This document shows, in pieces, positions 2,962 to 10,810 of a stretch of DNA of 36,051 nt (within the stretch, counting starts at the first letter, position 1; every line of letters starts with the position of its first letter). The stretch is from Chitinophaga pinensis. Lineage in GTDB: Bacteria > Bacteroidota > Bacteroidia > AKYH767-A > OLB10. The DNA is taken from the NCBI GenBank assembly GCA_943332105.1, contig CALQOD010000021.1, positions 1-36,051 on the forward strand, written 5' to 3'. The position numbers and the translations under genes were made by a program. Below the pieces are notes generated by a model that searched no databases, was not told the origin of the DNA, and saw nothing but the letters and a program-made list of their open reading frames with translations.

Positions 2962-3462
2962 ATGAAACGAATTCTATTTATTCTTTCTTTGCTATTTGTA
3001 GCCACATTAAATGTGAAGGCGCAAACACCTGGTGTATGCAAGGATTCATTGCGCCAACCACAACCAACGTATTCTTGTCCTGTTAAGTACGAACCTGTTT
3101 GTGGATGTGATGGACAAACTTATCGTAATAAATGTAATGCAGAAAATAGAGCTGGTTTACTGTATTCGACAGATGGCTGTTGTGGAAATTTTGATTTTGA
3201 TATTACTCCCAATGCAGTTACTTATCAATTAAATTTAGAGATATATAAAAAAACAAGTGGCAATGTTTTAATTACGGTTTTTAATACGCTTGGGTATCGC
3301 GAATTCGAATATCAGATTTTTATTCCTGATGCTGCAAGTGTTGGCGGTGCTTATCTTTTTCCTTTAGATTTAAATTATTTAGGGAATGGCGTTTTTCTTT
3401 TACAAGTTATATCTGATGGAGAGCAGCTCGTGAAAAAGTTTTATAAGTACCGTACTGATTAA
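2962..3462 (+). CDS. Secreted Kazal-type domain protein with T9SS-like C-terminus
   Basis: The 166-residue product has three parts. Residues 1-20 are a signal peptide (MKRILFILSLLFVATLNVKA). Residues about 26-74 form a Kazal-type serine protease inhibitor-like domain with cysteines at 26, 39, 47, 49, 58, 73 and 74, and the hallmark CGCDGQTYRNKC. Residues about 80-166 resemble a T9SS type A sorting domain: ITPN near its start, a beta-rich body, then NGVFLLQVISDGEQLVKKF. The predicted role is a secreted or surface-bound protein that may bind or inhibit serine proteases; no target can be named. The CTD is less canonical than those of the two later T9SS proteins because it lacks a PNP motif. An odd Cys73-Cys74 pair ends the Kazal domain. 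Confidence 0.8.
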   Translation: MKRILFILSLLFVATLNVKAQTPGVCKDSLRQPQPTYSCPVKYEPVCGCDGQTYRNKCNAENRAGLLYSTDGCCGNFDFDITPNAVTYQLNLEIYKKTSGNVLITVFNTLGYREFEYQIFIPDAASVGGAYLFPLDLNYLGNGVFLLQVISDGEQLVKKFYKYRTD

Positions 3463-3515
3463 TCAGAGCTGCTTATTAAATTATTTTTTATACTTTTAAT
3501 TAATAAATAAATAGC

Positions 3516-6500
3516 ATGAATAGTTCATTAAAAGCTATTCAGGTTTTTCTTTGGATAGTTTGTTTTTCATTATTTCAAACTCCTTCAAAAGGAAATAGCC
3601 TGACTACTCCATGTAATACAACCGCTCCTACTCTACTTTCTAGTGGACCTACAACTTTTTGTAGTGGTGGATCAGTTACACTAAGTGATAGTCATGGGCG
3701 CACATTACATTGGAGTAACGGAGCAGACTCAGTTGCGATTACCGTTTCAAATTCAGGAAACTATAGTGCCTACTATGATTCTGCAGGATGTATTAGTAAT
3801 GCATCTTCAATTCAAGTTATCGTAAAATCAAATCCGACTGGTGTTTATTTAGATAATCCTTATCAGCTTTGCGAAAACGATTCAGGACTCGTTACCATCA
3901 TGGGAAACACTTTTGGATTAAGTTATATGTGGGATGATGGAAGTACTGGTAATTCTGTATGGCTCAAAAATTTTCAACGAAGCGTTATAATTACCAATAG
4001 TAATGGTTGTAGCACTCCGCTTTACACGAATACCTTTATCACCTATGTAAATCCGATTTTTATTTCAGGCGACTTAGATATTTGTAGAGGAGAATCAACC
4101 ACATTAACTATTGATAATCCGGACCCCAATGCCACTTATTACTGGAGTGATGGACAAATGGGGACATCCATCAACGTTAGTCCTTATTCTACTACCAACT
4201 ATAGTGTTGTAAATTGGTCAGGTAGTATGTGTGGTAGTTTTGCAGAGGTAACAATTAACGTACATGTACCAACAGCTACGATTACTGGAGTTAATAGCGT
4301 TTGTAGTGGACAAAGCACCTCTTTAAGTGCTTCGGGCGGGAATCAATTTTTATGGAGCAATGGATCAATCTCTGGAGGAATATTTATTACGCCTACAAAC
4401 ACAACAACCTACATCGTAACAGTAACAGATTGGTATGGATGCACTGCAAAAATTTCAAAAACAATTACTGTGGGTCAATACCCAACCATTACAATAAGTG
4501 GTGATACAACATTATGTAATCAAGATACAGCCTACCTAACTGCGAATGGGGCCTGGAATTATGTATGGTCAAATGGAGATACAATAGCCACCACTAAATA
4601 TGTTAATTATAGCAGTACCTATGTTACAGGAACATCTATTTTGGGATGCTCCACTACTAAATGGGTACAAATCATATACGACAATAGTGCAATTCCGTAT
4701 TTATATACAAGTAATAATATCACCACTATTTGCCAAGGACAAACTACAACTATTAGTGATACCACTTCAACTATAACCAGTTATTTATGGAGTAATGGGA
4801 GTACCTCTAATTCAATTACGGTATCGCCAACTACAACAACCAACTATACGTTAAGTACAACATCATCGAGTGGCTGTCATTATTCATCCAATTTCAAAAT
4901 AAGTGTTGATACACCTAGCTATCCGGTTTTAAGCACTTACTCCGTAATAATTCAAGGGCAATCGAAGACTATTTACAGCAATGTGGTTGGCTCTGGATAT
5001 CTATGGAGTACAGGAGAAACAACAAGCAGTATAGCGGTTACGCCTAGCCAAACGACCAGTTATATTTTAACAGTTACTTTCCCTGGTGGTTGTACTAGTA
5101 CAGATACAACCATTGTATATGTAGATTCATTGCCAATAATCAGCGGACCTGACTCGGTTTGTGCGAATACTCCATTCACATTAACTGCAACTGGTGGCGG
5201 AACCTACCGATGGAGTCCGGGACAAGAAACAACATCTAGCGTTACAAGAACAATTACATCAAGTGGTAACTATACCATTTATGTTTATGTTACCACACCT
5301 CATGGAGCCTATAAATCGCTCACCAAAGTAGTTTATATTAAGCCAATGCCTTACTCTTCAATCAGCAATTCAGTTACGATTTGCAAAGAAGATTCGGCGA
5401 GGATAATTTTAAATCCTGGTAGTGGTACTACTTTCCAATGGTCGAATGGAGCAACAAATGATACGATATGGGTACACCCAGCAATTACAAGTACCTATAC
5501 TGCAACTATTACTAACAGTAATGGATGTACGAAAAACCAGTCGATAACTATTACAAGTCGTCCAACAACTATTATTAACATTACTGGCGATAGTATAATT
5601 TGTCGTGGTGCGGGAGCTACACTTAATGGTAACTATGGTAAGAATTATTATTGGAGCACAGGAGCATTAACTAATCAGATTCATGTATCTCCTATTTCAA
5701 GTCAGGTATATAGTGTTTATGCAAGAGATTCCAGTGGATGTTTAACAAACACAGACACTATTGAAGTAACTGTTTTGAATCCGCTTCAGATGAATATTAG
5801 CGGTGACCAAAATATTTGCAAAGGTGATACAACAATTTTAAGTGTTTCAAATACGGGCTTTAACTCTTATTGGAACACCGGCGACACTACACAATCGATA
5901 GCAGTAACCCCACCGACAACGAGCATCTATTCCGCCATGATTATGAATCCTGCGAATGGCTGTATTGCATCCGATACCGCTGTTGTTTCAGTTAACCAAG
6001 GAGTACACAACGGACAAATTTGCGTCTATTATATTCCAAATTGCAATCCTTTTATTGCATTGGTTGCAAAATACTCAAGTGGTTTATATTACTTATGGTC
6101 TACAGGAGAAACAACTTCCAGCATCAGTGTGCCTGCTACCGCTGGAACATATTCATTAACCATTTCAAATCATGATGGATGTGACGAAATGCATTTATCT
6201 GTAACAATTGATTCATCAATATGTGGATGTAATGCGCCCTATATAAGTGGTAATAATACAATTTGTTTAGGAGGTTCAACAACATTAACCGCAAATAACT
6301 TTTCGAATCCCCAGCCAACAGGATATATCTGGAGTAATGGCGCAACAACACGAAGCATAACAGTTTCTCCAACTACCACCACTACGTATACTGTTCAAAT
6401 GATTCTGGATAGTTGTATTCAAACAATATCTTATACCGTAAATATTCTTTCAGATACTGTAGCACCAATAACGGGTGTTGATACTATTTGTTCAGGCAAT

Positions 6501-9500
6501 ACATCATTTGTCGGATTTCAAACATTGAATAATGGTTTATCCTATTTATGGAGTAACGGAGCTACGGGCAGTTATTCTGGCGGATTAAATCCTACAAACC
6601 CCATCCAGAATTATACAGTTACTATTACTTACCCAGGAGGATGTAACATTAGCGGAACAAAAACACTTTACACCATTGCACCACAAACATTTTCAGTAAT
6701 TGGAGATAGTGTTGTTTGCGAAGGGGACTCGATTTATTTAATTGGAAGCAATACTGATTTAAATTATTGGTGGAATGGATTAGGCGATAATGTAGGTGGA
6801 GATAGTATTTATTTTAGTCCAACAACTAGCGGAAACATAATGGTATATGGTAGTATTTATAACAGTACTACCTACTGCAGTTCTGCTTTAAGTTATCCGC
6901 TTCATTTTATTCAAAATGAAAATACAGAAATAATTGGCAATGATTTAATTTGTCAAGGGAATGCGCTTACACTTACAACCAATAATACCGGTTCATTGCT
7001 CTGGTCGAATGGATCTACCAACAATACGATTACTCTATTTCCTTTCAATAACCAATCAATTGTATTAACTAACACCAATCAATGTGGCTATATAAGCAGT
7101 GATACATTAATTGTTCATGCAATAACCAATTCTCAAATCAATCATTACGACACCAGTATTTGTATCAATAATAATCCAATAACTATTATTCCTCATTTAA
7201 GTGGTAGTTACAGCTGGAATAACAACGCTACAGATTCAAGCATAACTTTAACTGCATTACATGATACAACTATTTTTGTAGATATCACGTTGCTAGGAGG
7301 ATGCGTTGCAAGAGAAGAATATACAATAACAGTACATCAGCAACCGAATGTAACCTTTACTGGCGATACAATTATTTGCCAAGAGGAATTAACTACACTA
7401 ACTGCTAACGGAGGCTCCTCTTATTTATGGGAAAACGGCTACACCTCTGCCTCAACGTTAGTACAACCATTTGTTAGTACCTGGTATTCCGTTACAGCTA
7501 CTGATAATAATGGTTGCAGCAGCACTGATTCCATATTCGTGAATGTTTCAAGAATACCAATGGTTACCATGTATGCACCAAAAAGTTTTTGCAGCGGACA
7601 AATTGCACAGATTGTTTGTGCTGCTAATAGCTATAGCTTCAATGATAATTATTATTACCTATGGTCGAATGGGGCAACAGGTACAACCATCAATGCTACT
7701 ATAAACAGTGATACTACTTTTTATGTAACCGTAACAGGAAACAATGGATGTAGTAACGAGTCATCGGCGAAAGTAACTACGAATTTAAATCAACCGATTA
7801 TAACAGGTGTTACCTTACTTTGTAAAGGGAAAAGCACATCACTTTCATTAAGTAATAACGATGCACCATATGGATCAACATATTTATGGAGTACGGGTGC
7901 AACAACAAAAAATATTACTGTAACTCCGCAACAAACAACTACCTATATAATTACAATTACATGGCCTGGCGGATGTACAACAACAGCAACCAAAACCATT
8001 ATTGTAGATTCAATTCCTGCTATAACATTTACAGGAAACAATCAGCTTTGTAAAGGTGGGACTACAACATTAAAATCAATTGGAGGAAGCAATCCGTATT
8101 GGACGGGCTTCGGATTTAAAGATAGTTTAATTGTTAGTCCTACGAGCACCACTACCTATCAAGTGCAAGTTAGTAACAGCAACGGATGTACGAGAACAGG
8201 AAGTTATACAGTTAATGTGATTAATAACCCAGTTGCTTTTATAGGAGACTCGACTGTCTGTTCAAACACAAGTTTGAATTTAAGCGCAACAGGAGGAACT
8301 AGTTATTTATGGAATACAGGTGCTACAAGTAGTTCAATAAGTGTTAGTCCTATTCAATATACATTATATACCGTAACAGTAACCAATAACAATATTTGCA
8401 GTGCTACACATAGTTTCCCAGTATATATCAACTCTACACCTACCGCAAGTATCACAGGTGATTTTTATGCATGTGAAAATGAAAGCACAATTATTACAGC
8501 ATCAATAGGCAATAGTTATTTGTGGAGCACTGGAGATACAACAAGAAGTATTACCATTCCTCCGAATACACCAACGGGGGCTTACTCGGTGACAGTTACC
8601 AGTAATAATGGATGTAGTGCAAGCACAGCAACAATTCATAATTACGTTTTACCACCTACTATTCATGTAACTGGCACTGCCAGCAAATGCGGACCAGGAA
8701 CATTTTATTTAAATGCATATACGGCAGGCTCATCCTATCTCTGGAGTACAGGAAACACATCAAGTGCAATCTCTGTAAATGCTAACACAACAATTAATAT
8801 TGGCTTAACAATTACTAACAGTTACGGATGTACGAATGATTCTATTATTGCATTAATCATTAATAATGCTCCAACACCAGTGATAAGCAGCAATGACACT
8901 ACACTATGTAATGGAGATTCAATAGCGATTTATAGTAACCAAGTGAGTGGAATTTATAGCTGGTCTACATCTGACACAACAGCCAATATCTTTGTTTCAC
9001 AGGCAGGTAGTTATCAACTAACTTATTCTGATAGCAATGGATGTGCGGGAACAAGTAATACGATTCACATTTACAATGTAAACTCTCCTCCACCAGTCTT
9101 ATCAAGTTTAGCAGACACAATTTGCTTCGGAGAAAGTATTAGCATTTTAGCGACGGGAGCAAATCAATACCAGTGGAGTCCTAATTCAAACATATCCAAT
9201 GCAAATAGTAATTCTCCAGTTTTCTATCCTACCTCAAACACTATTTATACATTAACGGGAACAAATACCTACGGATGCACCTCAACAACTAATTATTCTA
9301 TCGTTGTAAATTCATTGCCGATTGTAAATGCAGGATCCGATTCTTCGATAAATAGCGGTACTACATTACAGTTAGGAGGCAATCCGACAGCAACGGGACT
9401 TGGTCCGTTTATTTATCAGTGGACACCAGGAGGCAACCTGAACGATTCATTGATAAGTAATCCGACAGCAAGTCCGAATAATACTGCAACTTACTATGTA

Positions 9501-9842
9501 ACTATTACAGATGGTAATGGCTGCCTTAATAGTGATTCTGTGACGGTAATCGTAAACAACATACAAGGAATAACCACAACTGAATCTATCTCGACAATCA
9601 GTCTAAATCCGAATCCTTCAAGCAATACAATTGTTGTTAACATCAAGTCAGAAACAACAGACAAATTCGAGATTAAGATTTTAAATACAAGTGGACAACT
9701 ATTACTGAATTTAATAGAAGAAAAATTAAATTCATCTCTAGAAAAATCAATCAATATTGAAAGTTGGGAATCGGGAGTGTATTATCTGCAAGTGAATGGC
9801 AGCAGTTGGAGTAAAACAATTCGATTTGTAAAAGTAGATTAA
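3516..9842 (+). CDS. Giant secreted Ig-like repeat protein with T9SS sorting domain
   Basis: This 2108-residue exported protein begins with a hydrophobic signal-like segment (residues about 6-27). It then contains about 27 Ig/PKD-like repeats of roughly 73 residues. The typical unit is Cys-x-Gly near the start, a central (S/T)YLWS(N/T)G(A/E)TT core, S(I/V)xVxP, a TxxYxVTVT strand, and a second Cys in N(G)GC. The two cysteines per unit probably form a disulfide outside the cell. The last ~80 residues are a T9SS type A sorting domain (LNPNPSSN ... SGVYYLQV ... KTIRFVKVD). No enzymatic domain was seen, so an adhesin or surface-filament role is an inference. A weak -7-like TACTTTTA lies upstream. 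Its TAA overlaps the stop codon of the convergent gene. Confidence 0.88.
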   Translation: MNSSLKAIQVFLWIVCFSLFQTPSKGNSLTTPCNTTAPTLLSSGPTTFCSGGSVTLSDSHGRTLHWSNGADSVAITVSNSGNYSAYYDSAGCISNASSIQVIVKSNPTGVYLDNPYQLCENDSGLVTIMGNTFGLSYMWDDGSTGNSVWLKNFQRSVIITNSNGCSTPLYTNTFITYVNPIFISGDLDICRGESTTLTIDNPDPNATYYWSDGQMGTSINVSPYSTTNYSVVNWSGSMCGSFAEVTINVHVPTATITGVNSVCSGQSTSLSASGGNQFLWSNGSISGGIFITPTNTTTYIVTVTDWYGCTAKISKTITVGQYPTITISGDTTLCNQDTAYLTANGAWNYVWSNGDTIATTKYVNYSSTYVTGTSILGCSTTKWVQIIYDNSAIPYLYTSNNITTICQGQTTTISDTTSTITSYLWSNGSTSNSITVSPTTTTNYTLSTTSSSGCHYSSNFKISVDTPSYPVLSTYSVIIQGQSKTIYSNVVGSGYLWSTGETTSSIAVTPSQTTSYILTVTFPGGCTSTDTTIVYVDSLPIISGPDSVCANTPFTLTATGGGTYRWSPGQETTSSVTRTITSSGNYTIYVYVTTPHGAYKSLTKVVYIKPMPYSSISNSVTICKEDSARIILNPGSGTTFQWSNGATNDTIWVHPAITSTYTATITNSNGCTKNQSITITSRPTTIINITGDSIICRGAGATLNGNYGKNYYWSTGALTNQIHVSPISSQVYSVYARDSSGCLTNTDTIEVTVLNPLQMNISGDQNICKGDTTILSVSNTGFNSYWNTGDTTQSIAVTPPTTSIYSAMIMNPANGCIASDTAVVSVNQGVHNGQICVYYIPNCNPFIALVAKYSSGLYYLWSTGETTSSISVPATAGTYSLTISNHDGCDEMHLSVTIDSSICGCNAPYISGNNTICLGGSTTLTANNFSNPQPTGYIWSNGATTRSITVSPTTTTTYTVQMILDSCIQTISYTVNILSDTVAPITGVDTICSGNTSFVGFQTLNNGLSYLWSNGATGSYSGGLNPTNPIQNYTVTITYPGGCNISGTKTLYTIAPQTFSVIGDSVVCEGDSIYLIGSNTDLNYWWNGLGDNVGGDSIYFSPTTSGNIMVYGSIYNSTTYCSSALSYPLHFIQNENTEIIGNDLICQGNALTLTTNNTGSLLWSNGSTNNTITLFPFNNQSIVLTNTNQCGYISSDTLIVHAITNSQINHYDTSICINNNPITIIPHLSGSYSWNNNATDSSITLTALHDTTIFVDITLLGGCVAREEYTITVHQQPNVTFTGDTIICQEELTTLTANGGSSYLWENGYTSASTLVQPFVSTWYSVTATDNNGCSSTDSIFVNVSRIPMVTMYAPKSFCSGQIAQIVCAANSYSFNDNYYYLWSNGATGTTINATINSDTTFYVTVTGNNGCSNESSAKVTTNLNQPIITGVTLLCKGKSTSLSLSNNDAPYGSTYLWSTGATTKNITVTPQQTTTYIITITWPGGCTTTATKTIIVDSIPAITFTGNNQLCKGGTTTLKSIGGSNPYWTGFGFKDSLIVSPTSTTTYQVQVSNSNGCTRTGSYTVNVINNPVAFIGDSTVCSNTSLNLSATGGTSYLWNTGATSSSISVSPIQYTLYTVTVTNNNICSATHSFPVYINSTPTASITGDFYACENESTIITASIGNSYLWSTGDTTRSITIPPNTPTGAYSVTVTSNNGCSASTATIHNYVLPPTIHVTGTASKCGPGTFYLNAYTAGSSYLWSTGNTSSAISVNANTTINIGLTITNSYGCTNDSIIALIINNAPTPVISSNDTTLCNGDSIAIYSNQVSGIYSWSTSDTTANIFVSQAGSYQLTYSDSNGCAGTSNTIHIYNVNSPPPVLSSLADTICFGESISILATGANQYQWSPNSNISNANSNSPVFYPTSNTIYTLTGTNTYGCTSTTNYSIVVNSLPIVNAGSDSSINSGTTLQLGGNPTATGLGPFIYQWTPGGNLNDSLISNPTASPNNTATYYVTITDGNGCLNSDSVTVIVNNIQGITTTESISTISLNPNPSSNTIVVNIKSETTDKFEIKILNTSGQLLLNLIEEKLNSSLEKSINIESWESGVYYLQVNGSSWSKTIRFVKVD
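3624..9560 (+). repeat. Tandem array of about 27 Ig-like coding repeats
   Basis: Within the giant gene, units of about 220 bp repeat in tandem. I counted 27 copies by eye using the WSNG/WSTG core and the Cys-x-Gly start. The copies have diverged at the DNA level, with no long exact repeats noticed. Some units lack one hallmark: unit 8 has no GC motif, and units 15, 17 and 21 have altered WSNG cores. This points to old duplication followed by divergence rather than recent expansion. Confidence 0.85.
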
Positions 9843-10810
9843 GATTGAGTTATAACAATCGATTTAATCTTATCAATATAGTTGCTTAAAATTGTTTCCT
9901 TATTGTAATCACTTTTAACCATATTTATGAGTTCATGGTTGGGAGTTAAATTTCTATTAGAAACAATCTCTTTTACCTTTTCGAAAGCAACGATTACTTC
10001 ATCAATTGTTTTGGCTTGATGAGAATATTTATAGGGAGATGTCATAATTACTTCACACCCAAAACTCATTGCTTCAATAACAGAAACAGGAAATCCTTCA
10101 TGCTCTGCAAGTCTGAAAAATATTGGCGTTTCACGTAAGTGATTTTGAAAACCATCGGAAGGCACCCAACCAAATAATTTTACATTAGCGGGTAATTCTA
10201 CCTCCGAATTTACCACGCCAAACAATTTAAATTCGATGGATGGATATTTTTCTGCTACTGCTTTAAACTGATGAATTCCATAAAACGCCTGACGCTTATC
10301 TGCGATATAAGTCATTGCAGAAATCGAAGAATATTTTTCAATCACGTTTTTCACATCGGCAAATTTAAACGGAACATATTCAGGTTTTAATCCAACAGAG
10401 ATTAGCTCAGTATTCAACCAAGGTGAATCAACAAAGTGAAAAGCACGGTTGATATAATCACGCTTTATAGTTCCATTTTTATATCGCTCCATGGCCAGCA
10501 AGGAATCTGTGCCCTGCCATTGCATAATGAGTTTCTTCTTGAGCTTCAACACTGCATTCAAAGAACCGCTATTATCCGTTACACCATTCATTGATATAAC
10601 AACATCTGCAAAAGGCAATAACAATAAAAATTTTAGTTGTTGCAGTTTTGAATTATAGGTATCACAAAAAACATATTTTGATTTGGAATCAAATCGTCCG
10701 AGATCATCTGCTAGTCGTTTGCTGAACAAGGGTAATCCATTTATTAGTACGAGCATAGACTTATTTGCGAAGGATGTAGGTAGATTTATTAAGTGTTTTC
10801 CGAGATTCAT
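9839..10810 (-). CDS. GT4-like glycosyltransferase
   Basis: This 323-residue protein has the GT-B layout of family 4 glycosyltransferases. The C-terminal half contains FKLFGVV, VKLFGWVPSD and EHEGFPVSVIEAMSFG, in which Glu238 and Glu246 form the E-x7-E motif that binds the nucleotide sugar. It is short for the family because the N-terminal acceptor domain is compact. No signal peptide or clear membrane helix was seen, so it is probably cytosolic or peripheral. Donor and acceptor cannot be predicted. It is encoded opposite the giant Ig-like gene, and the two stop codons share 4 nt (TTAA). A weak -7-like box (AACATTTG, plus-strand 10834-10841) lies 23 nt upstream of its start. Confidence 0.8.
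   Translation of the reverse strand: MNLGKHLINLPTSFANKSMLVLINGLPLFSKRLADDLGRFDSKSKYVFCDTYNSKLQQLKFLLLLPFADVVISMNGVTDNSGSLNAVLKLKKKLIMQWQGTDSLLAMERYKNGTIKRDYINRAFHFVDSPWLNTELISVGLKPEYVPFKFADVKNVIEKYSSISAMTYIADKRQAFYGIHQFKAVAEKYPSIEFKLFGVVNSEVELPANVKLFGWVPSDGFQNHLRETPIFFRLAEHEGFPVSVIEAMSFGCEVIMTSPYKYSHQAKTIDEVIVAFEKVKEIVSNRNLTPNHELINMVKSDYNKETILSNYIDKIKSIVITQS

Follow-up and report, generated by a model that had tools for sequence, protein, structure and literature searches.

The window analysed here is a stretch of 36,051 nucleotides, the forward strand of contig CALQOD010000021.1 from positions 1 to 36,051, in a draft genome deposited as Chitinophaga pinensis (GenBank GCA_943332105.1, referred to below as G000), and our subject is the gene it carries for a long array protein, P0001, together with the site that this gene occupies. 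The gene is an accessory insertion between two convergent genes, and it was very likely exchanged recently, as a gene-sized unit, with another species of the same genus (the second carrier, G006). An earlier note, made from the letters of the window alone, had described the protein and its repeats; the empty insertion sites, the exchange between species and the enrichment in O-glycosylation sequons lay beyond its reach. The features of the locus are collected in Table 1.

Table 1. Features of the P0001 locus (positions in the window).
Feature	Positions	Strand	Basis or remark
Array-protein coding sequence (P0001)	3516-9842	+	Open reading frame listing; ATG to TAA, 2108 residues, without internal stop
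Signal-peptide-like N-terminus, about residues 1-27	3516-3596	+	By eye and a simple hydrophobicity rule
Array of 27 Ig/PKD-like units in tandem (residues 39-2023); contains 37 D-S/T-A/I/L/V/M/T sequons	3630-9584	+	Unit model, sequon count and predicted fold
Type IX secretion system type A sorting domain, residues 2032-2106	9609-9833	+	PF18962 and TIGR04183
Insert	3463-9842	+	Missing at the same site in G003, G004 and G005; GATTAA at 3457-3462 and 9837-9842
Near-identical tract shared with G006	3427-10057	.	Outside the gene, a single mismatch (position 9913); neighbours diverged as between species
Left neighbour, Kazal-domain protein	2962-3462	+	Weak type IX secretion tail (18.5 bits, cut-off 23)
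Right neighbour, glycosyltransferase (Glycos_transf_1)	9839-10810	-	Convergent with the array gene, the two stop codons overlapping

The open frame of the surface-type protein proposed in the earlier note was confirmed at its full length, and so was its sorting domain for the type IX secretion system (T9SS), which is recognised above cut-off by both Por_Secre_tail in Pfam (PF18962, residues 2032–2099, 41.4 bits against 27) and TIGR04183 in NCBIfam (38.1 bits against 23). The N-terminus is hydrophobic and resembles a Sec signal, as judged by inspection and the simple rule rather than by a dedicated predictor. A Pfam scan identified the body of the protein as immunoglobulin (Ig)-like, with Ig_7 (PF19081, ‘CHU_C associated’) at 29.6 bits against a cut-off of 27.3 and 11 tandem stretches. 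The same note had seen no enzymatic or ligand-binding module, and likewise, among the five Pfam families listed up to E 10, we found neither an enzymatic family nor a module for binding carbohydrates or other ligands, with a PAAR motif at E 0.88 falling far under the cut-off of its family. The T9SS component SprA is encoded in the same genome (TIGR04189, 2622.7 bits, on C2 of G000). We note that the tail models match 124 (type A) and 25 (type B) times at E 0.001 in this 2.77 Mb genome, counts which may partly overlap and which amount to a large surface repertoire.

Full-length matches to P0001 were found in two of the seven genus genomes (G000 and G006), and in two of 24 genomes at the family level and two of 42 at the order level (E 1e-75, with nine candidates scored per genome). 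In G003, G004 and G005 the Kazal-domain and glycosyltransferase genes stand tail to tail with overlapping stop codons and nothing between them. The hexamer GATTAA is present at both ends of the insert and in a single copy at these empty sites; at each end it is the Asp–stop context of the gene that stops there, and it may be there by chance. In all six other genus genomes the region adjoining sdhB contains a homolog of the Kazal-domain gene, and for the glycosyltransferase no genome match was found in G001 and G002, the next gene in G001 being a different one. The product of the Kazal-domain gene itself is a small protein with a Kazal-type protease-inhibitor domain and a sub-threshold T9SS tail.

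Our search for hallmarks of mobile elements found no long direct repeat and no notable terminal inverted repeats, each junction having been searched separately and the two ends compared by eye. A foreign composition was also rejected, as the GC content at third codon positions of the array gene (0.257) is inside the range of six other genes of the window (0.210–0.295) and slightly above that of six other Ig arrays (0.177–0.249), and thus no distant donor is indicated. The donor search produced no further close copy and two loci in total, one at 99% identity and one at 26%; the latter (L060) was rejected as an ortholog because inspection shows it to be largely a PKD-like array and our unit model matches it only weakly.

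The copy in G006, on contig CANGJU010000017.1 (a metagenome-assembled genome, or MAG, record), is 99.6% identical to the array gene of G000, with 26 differences in 6327 nt and a synonymous divergence (dS) of 0.009, whereas dS for eight neighbouring genes ranges from 0.355 (glycosyltransferase) to 1.068 (gcvP). The ratio of non-synonymous to synonymous divergence (dN/dS) is 0.30 for the array gene, a value resting on those 26 differences only, and 0.02–0.14 for the eight neighbours. When identity between the two genomes is followed in steps of 250 bp, it is 88–96% over sdhA and sdhB, 76–86% over the Kazal-domain gene, 97.6–100% over the array gene and 58–94% beyond it, and the identical tract extends into both flanking genes, by 36 bp on the Kazal-domain side and by about 215 bp on the glycosyltransferase side. 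As a background we compared 1655 fragments of 500 bp from G000, of which 429 matched the sampled portion of G006 over 350 bp or more and 1226 did not. The 417 fragments outside the gene have a median identity of 82.2% and a 99th percentile of 98.1%, values that overstate the background because they are best local matches, and all 12 gene fragments reach at least 99.0%. That the near-identity ends so soon past the insert on both sides argues strongly for a recent gene-sized exchange between the two species, for which homologous recombination on short flanks would be the simplest route. For the glycosyltransferase gene, too, the two carriers are unusually close to each other (dS 0.355, compared with 1.2–1.75 to G003–G005), which suggests an older exchange that took this gene in.

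Two other accounts of these observations have to be weighed. Were the near-identity an artefact of assembly or binning, with the gene of one species stitched into the contig of the other, it would sit easily with two fragmented drafts (147 and about 200 contigs, the G006 contig being a MAG record) and with a left shared flank that comes near the length of short assembly words; however, each contig has the flanks of its own species on both sides, so that two independent false joins would be required, the two copies differ at 26 sites, and three further and smaller near-identical islands occur elsewhere in the sample, as in real gene flow. We regard such an artefact as very unlikely. It is also improbable that the gene is ancestral at this site, that G003, G004 and G005 lost it through a deletion running from one GATTAA copy to the other, and that G000 and G006 simply kept it: one hexamer at the empty sites and two around the insert are what a short-repeat deletion leaves, but retention cannot yield a dS of 0.009 beside neighbours at 0.36–1.07 and would still require a recent exchange, and, apart from the glycosyltransferase, the neighbouring genes of G000 resemble those of G006 no more than those of G004 or G005.

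Among the smaller near-identical islands, one holds a second T9SS-tailed gene, for 835 residues (the tail recognised by eye), at G000:C3:15223-17730 (L091) and on G006:C25, where about 3 kb are 92–100% identical per 200 bp and the flanks mostly about 77–91%. Orthologs of this gene in G001, G002 and G003 are diverged (63–77% identity), and so an allele was probably exchanged here rather than a gene gained. The other two islands lie at G000:C7:8278-9514 (L095) and G000:C22:17200-18300 (L141:17200-18300); one of the two, of about 1.1 kb, contains a small gene pair, and the other, of about 1 kb, a gene for a 105-residue protein resembling a ParE-type toxin by eye.

The array itself was proposed in the earlier note to consist of about 27 diverged Ig-like repeats, and this was borne out. 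A hidden Markov model built from the proposed units found 27 stretches in P0001 (49.7–83.0 bits), and as this is circular we added leave-one-out scoring, in which all 27 units were recovered by models made from the other 26 (30.4–77.8 bits); in 200 shuffled versions of P0001 no domain exceeded 7.5 bits. The units share a mean pairwise identity of 27.5% with a maximum of 49% (units 4 and 20), adjacent pairs (27.49%) are no closer than non-adjacent pairs (27.52%), and no DNA tandem repeats were found in the gene. A recent tandem expansion, which the note had wished to see checked by comparing the repeats, was therefore rejected, and the array is old rather than lately expanded. The comparison of repeat number it had also called for gave the same length, 2108 residues, in the other carrier. 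As for its Cys-paired units with a WSNG/WSTG core, the alignment, as we read it, shows the core Trp in all 27 units and both Cys in 24 (units 7 and 27 are without the first and unit 8 without the second). Units 8, 15, 17 and 21 have altered cores that are true sequence variants, as the note had said, and units 2, 18, 25, 26 and 27 likewise deviate from WSNG/WSTG. Finally, the idea that uniformity makes the array unusual is weak, since the parts of G000 and G006 that were sampled contain at least five more long arrays built from this unit. One of them, at L149:745-16803 (G006:C4), is 5353 residues long and is matched 54 times by the P0001 unit model, and its first 2500 residues contain no match at E 0.001 to grappling hook protein A (GhpA) of Aureispira sp. 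CCB-QB1.

Structure prediction, which the note had named as a check, returned the Ig-like folds it anticipated. The AlphaFold2 model of units 22–23 (13 window rows) is all beta with a mean predicted local distance difference test score (pLDDT) of 93.4 and a predicted TM-score of 0.75, and each bead is accordingly modelled as PKD/Ig-like, the two-unit pair resembling pairs of GhpA domains. GhpA is the best sequence match of P0001 in the PDB (E 1.4e-17), the top seven Foldseek matches of the two-unit model against the PDB are all GhpA fragments (best TM-score 0.78, 9flw, E 2.4e-08), and GhpA fragments also head the VIA-align list (Z 11.6, root-mean-square deviation 3.0, 143 residues aligned), where a collagenase PKD domain scores Z 9.9 with a deviation of 1.6 over 69 residues. 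The model of units 14–17 (six rows) is weaker than that of the canonical pair, with a mean pLDDT of 79.9, and also matches GhpA (TM-score 0.41–0.49). Its strand pattern is the same, so that units 15 and 17 look ordinary, and the special roles once suggested for units 8, 15, 17 and 21, or a special fold in the altered units, are not supported by this model, which covers units 15 and 17.

P0001 contains 37 sequons of the form D-S/T-A/I/L/V/M/T compared with 8.5 expected from shuffling (standard deviation 2.8). The control motifs behave differently, with 10 observed and 12.1 expected for D-S/T followed by other residues, 15 and 23.4 for N-S/T-X, 9 and 8.6 for the reversed motif, and 6 and 2.7 for E-S/T-X. 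Shuffling that preserves the alignment columns still leaves 35 sequons observed against 16.4 expected (standard deviation 2.8), and none of 1000 shuffles reached the observed number. P0001 has the largest excess (28.3, the next being 12.5) among 375 complete open reading frames of at least 250 residues in our sample, from which frames cut by the end of a stretch, such as a sequon-rich array on C2, are excluded. Across the sample the ratio of observed to expected sequons is 1.88 for secreted-like proteins, 1.24 for inner-membrane-like proteins and 1.14 for the others. The G006 copy keeps all 37 sequons and has one more. According to PMC12871550 and PMC8550257, Bacteroidota O-glycosylate this motif in non-cytoplasmic proteins with near-full occupancy, and it is likely, on the strength of these counts, that P0001 is O-glycosylated.

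Our overall reading, which we hold to be the probable one, is that P0001 is a lipopolysaccharide-anchored, O-glycosylated and extended stalk of an ordinary class, with a gene common to two species. According to PMC11205867, type A cargo of Porphyromonas gingivalis is passed to PorV and PorU and to A-LPS. P0001, as a T9SS type A cargo, would be exported by Sec, pass the outer membrane through the T9SS, lose its tail and be joined to surface lipopolysaccharide as that cargo is. The 27 beads would then project from the surface as an extended stalk of very roughly 100 nm, given that one Ig-like bead adds about 3.5–4 nm. Its dense sequons would probably be filled by the general periplasmic O-glycosylation of the phylum, and the glycan of the host itself would be displayed several dozen times along the stalk, which would act as a sugar-coated spacer or coat and not as an enzyme; we give this last step, the function, about an even chance. 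The gene is accessory and probably passes as a single unit from species to species within the genus, through homologous recombination in short segments of the genes beside it, and a species that receives it would add a new stalk to its surface, bearing that species' own sugars.

Several observations weigh against parts of this reading. The homologous arm on the left measures just 36 bp, and the near-identity rests on two draft genomes, although a chimeric assembly is unlikely. The Ser and Thr residues of sequons are only modestly over-represented in the loops of the model (18/35, against 242/592 for all Ser and Thr; 35 of the 37 sequons can be placed, two spanning unit borders). There are also sequon-poor arrays (3 against 16.9 expected in the 5353-residue array, and 1 against 9.3 in one of 2604 residues), and P0001 is not unique in its richness, with 28 sequons against 8.4 expected in a 1516-residue stretch of the 2152-residue C2 array; the genus thus seems, from these counts, to keep both sequon-rich and sequon-poor arrays. 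The main rival to a coat or spacer is a specific adhesin, in which particular Ig units bind a ligand such as an algal polysaccharide or the surface of prey or kin, exchange spreads attachment to a niche, and the glycans are incidental. Long bacterial Ig/PKD arrays are often adhesive, a gene-sized exchange fits a selectable niche trait, and the dN/dS of the array gene, few as its differences are, allows relaxed or changing constraint; against this, the Pfam families listed include no binding module, and the units are all of one kind with none forming a separate fold. We consider an adhesin a real but doubtful alternative. Far less likely is a small relative of the Aureispira grappling hook, in which protomers would associate laterally to build a filament or a hook for catching other cells. 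The lead of GhpA in the PDB sequence, Foldseek and VIA-align comparisons and the T9SS in the genome speak for it, but the likeness is confined to the repeats and reflects the general Ig_7/PKD fold, as the Z score of a single PKD domain indicates. The common fold does not make P0001 a hook, as it has 2108 residues compared with 5898 and the type VI secretion system (T6SS) sheath gene VipB (PF05943) was found in none of the seven genus genomes, the Escherichia coli control being positive.

Environmental Bacteroidota commonly have long surface proteins made of Ig repeats, and to our knowledge almost none of these proteins has a known role. P0001 belongs to this ordinary class; what makes it interesting is that its gene is accessory, was very likely exchanged recently, has a defined empty site and encodes a surface protein that is probably heavily glycosylated. 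Caught soon after a move between species, and with its empty site and breakpoints defined, its spread and selective value could be traced in lake time series, and the 37 predicted O-glycan sites are a strong and cheap prediction which splits the giant arrays of one genus into sequon-rich and sequon-poor kinds. More speculatively, and we think this improbable as yet, the species of the genus may share a small pool of exchangeable glycoprotein stalks, each moving as a cassette with short flanks into a fixed site between core genes. If so, each recipient would add its species-specific O-glycan, one transfer would re-clothe the cell against phages or grazers, and the T9SS gene at G000:C3:15223-17730 would be a further member of the pool.

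The systems closest to P0001 share some features with it and differ in others. The Ig_7 ‘CHU_C associated’ arrays of Bacteroidota with a T9SS tail share its domain family and overall plan, although the long arrays on C62, C2, C34 and C37 of G000 have a type B tail (TIGR04131) where P0001 has type A, and P0001, set against these other arrays, is accessory in the genus. GhpA (PDB 9flp, 9fls–9fly and 9g8b) has tandem Ig/PKD-like domains of the same fold and is secreted by the T9SS according to PMC11205867, a route suggested for P0001 by its own tail. GhpA forms heptameric filaments of 5898-residue chains (PMC13319060) and is used together with a T6SS in ixotrophy, in contrast to P0001, which is about a third of that length and comes from a genus with no detectable T6SS sheath gene in the seven genomes. 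TfsA and TfsB of Tannerella forsythia are also T9SS cargo with many D-S/T-X O-glycan sites, and for TfsB 19 of 20 predicted sites were detected (PMC8550257); these are S-layer glycoproteins. The sites of P0001 are predicted, and its host belongs to an uncultured Bacteroidota lineage. For the exchange, the nearest precedent we found in the literature for such a transfer or array type, which does not prove that nothing else is in print, is P. gingivalis, where surface-protein variants move independently of strain phylogeny (PMC5266723). The variants of P. gingivalis are exchanged as alleles within one species, and here an entire gene has entered a vacant site, the two species involved having a median identity of 82% in the sample.

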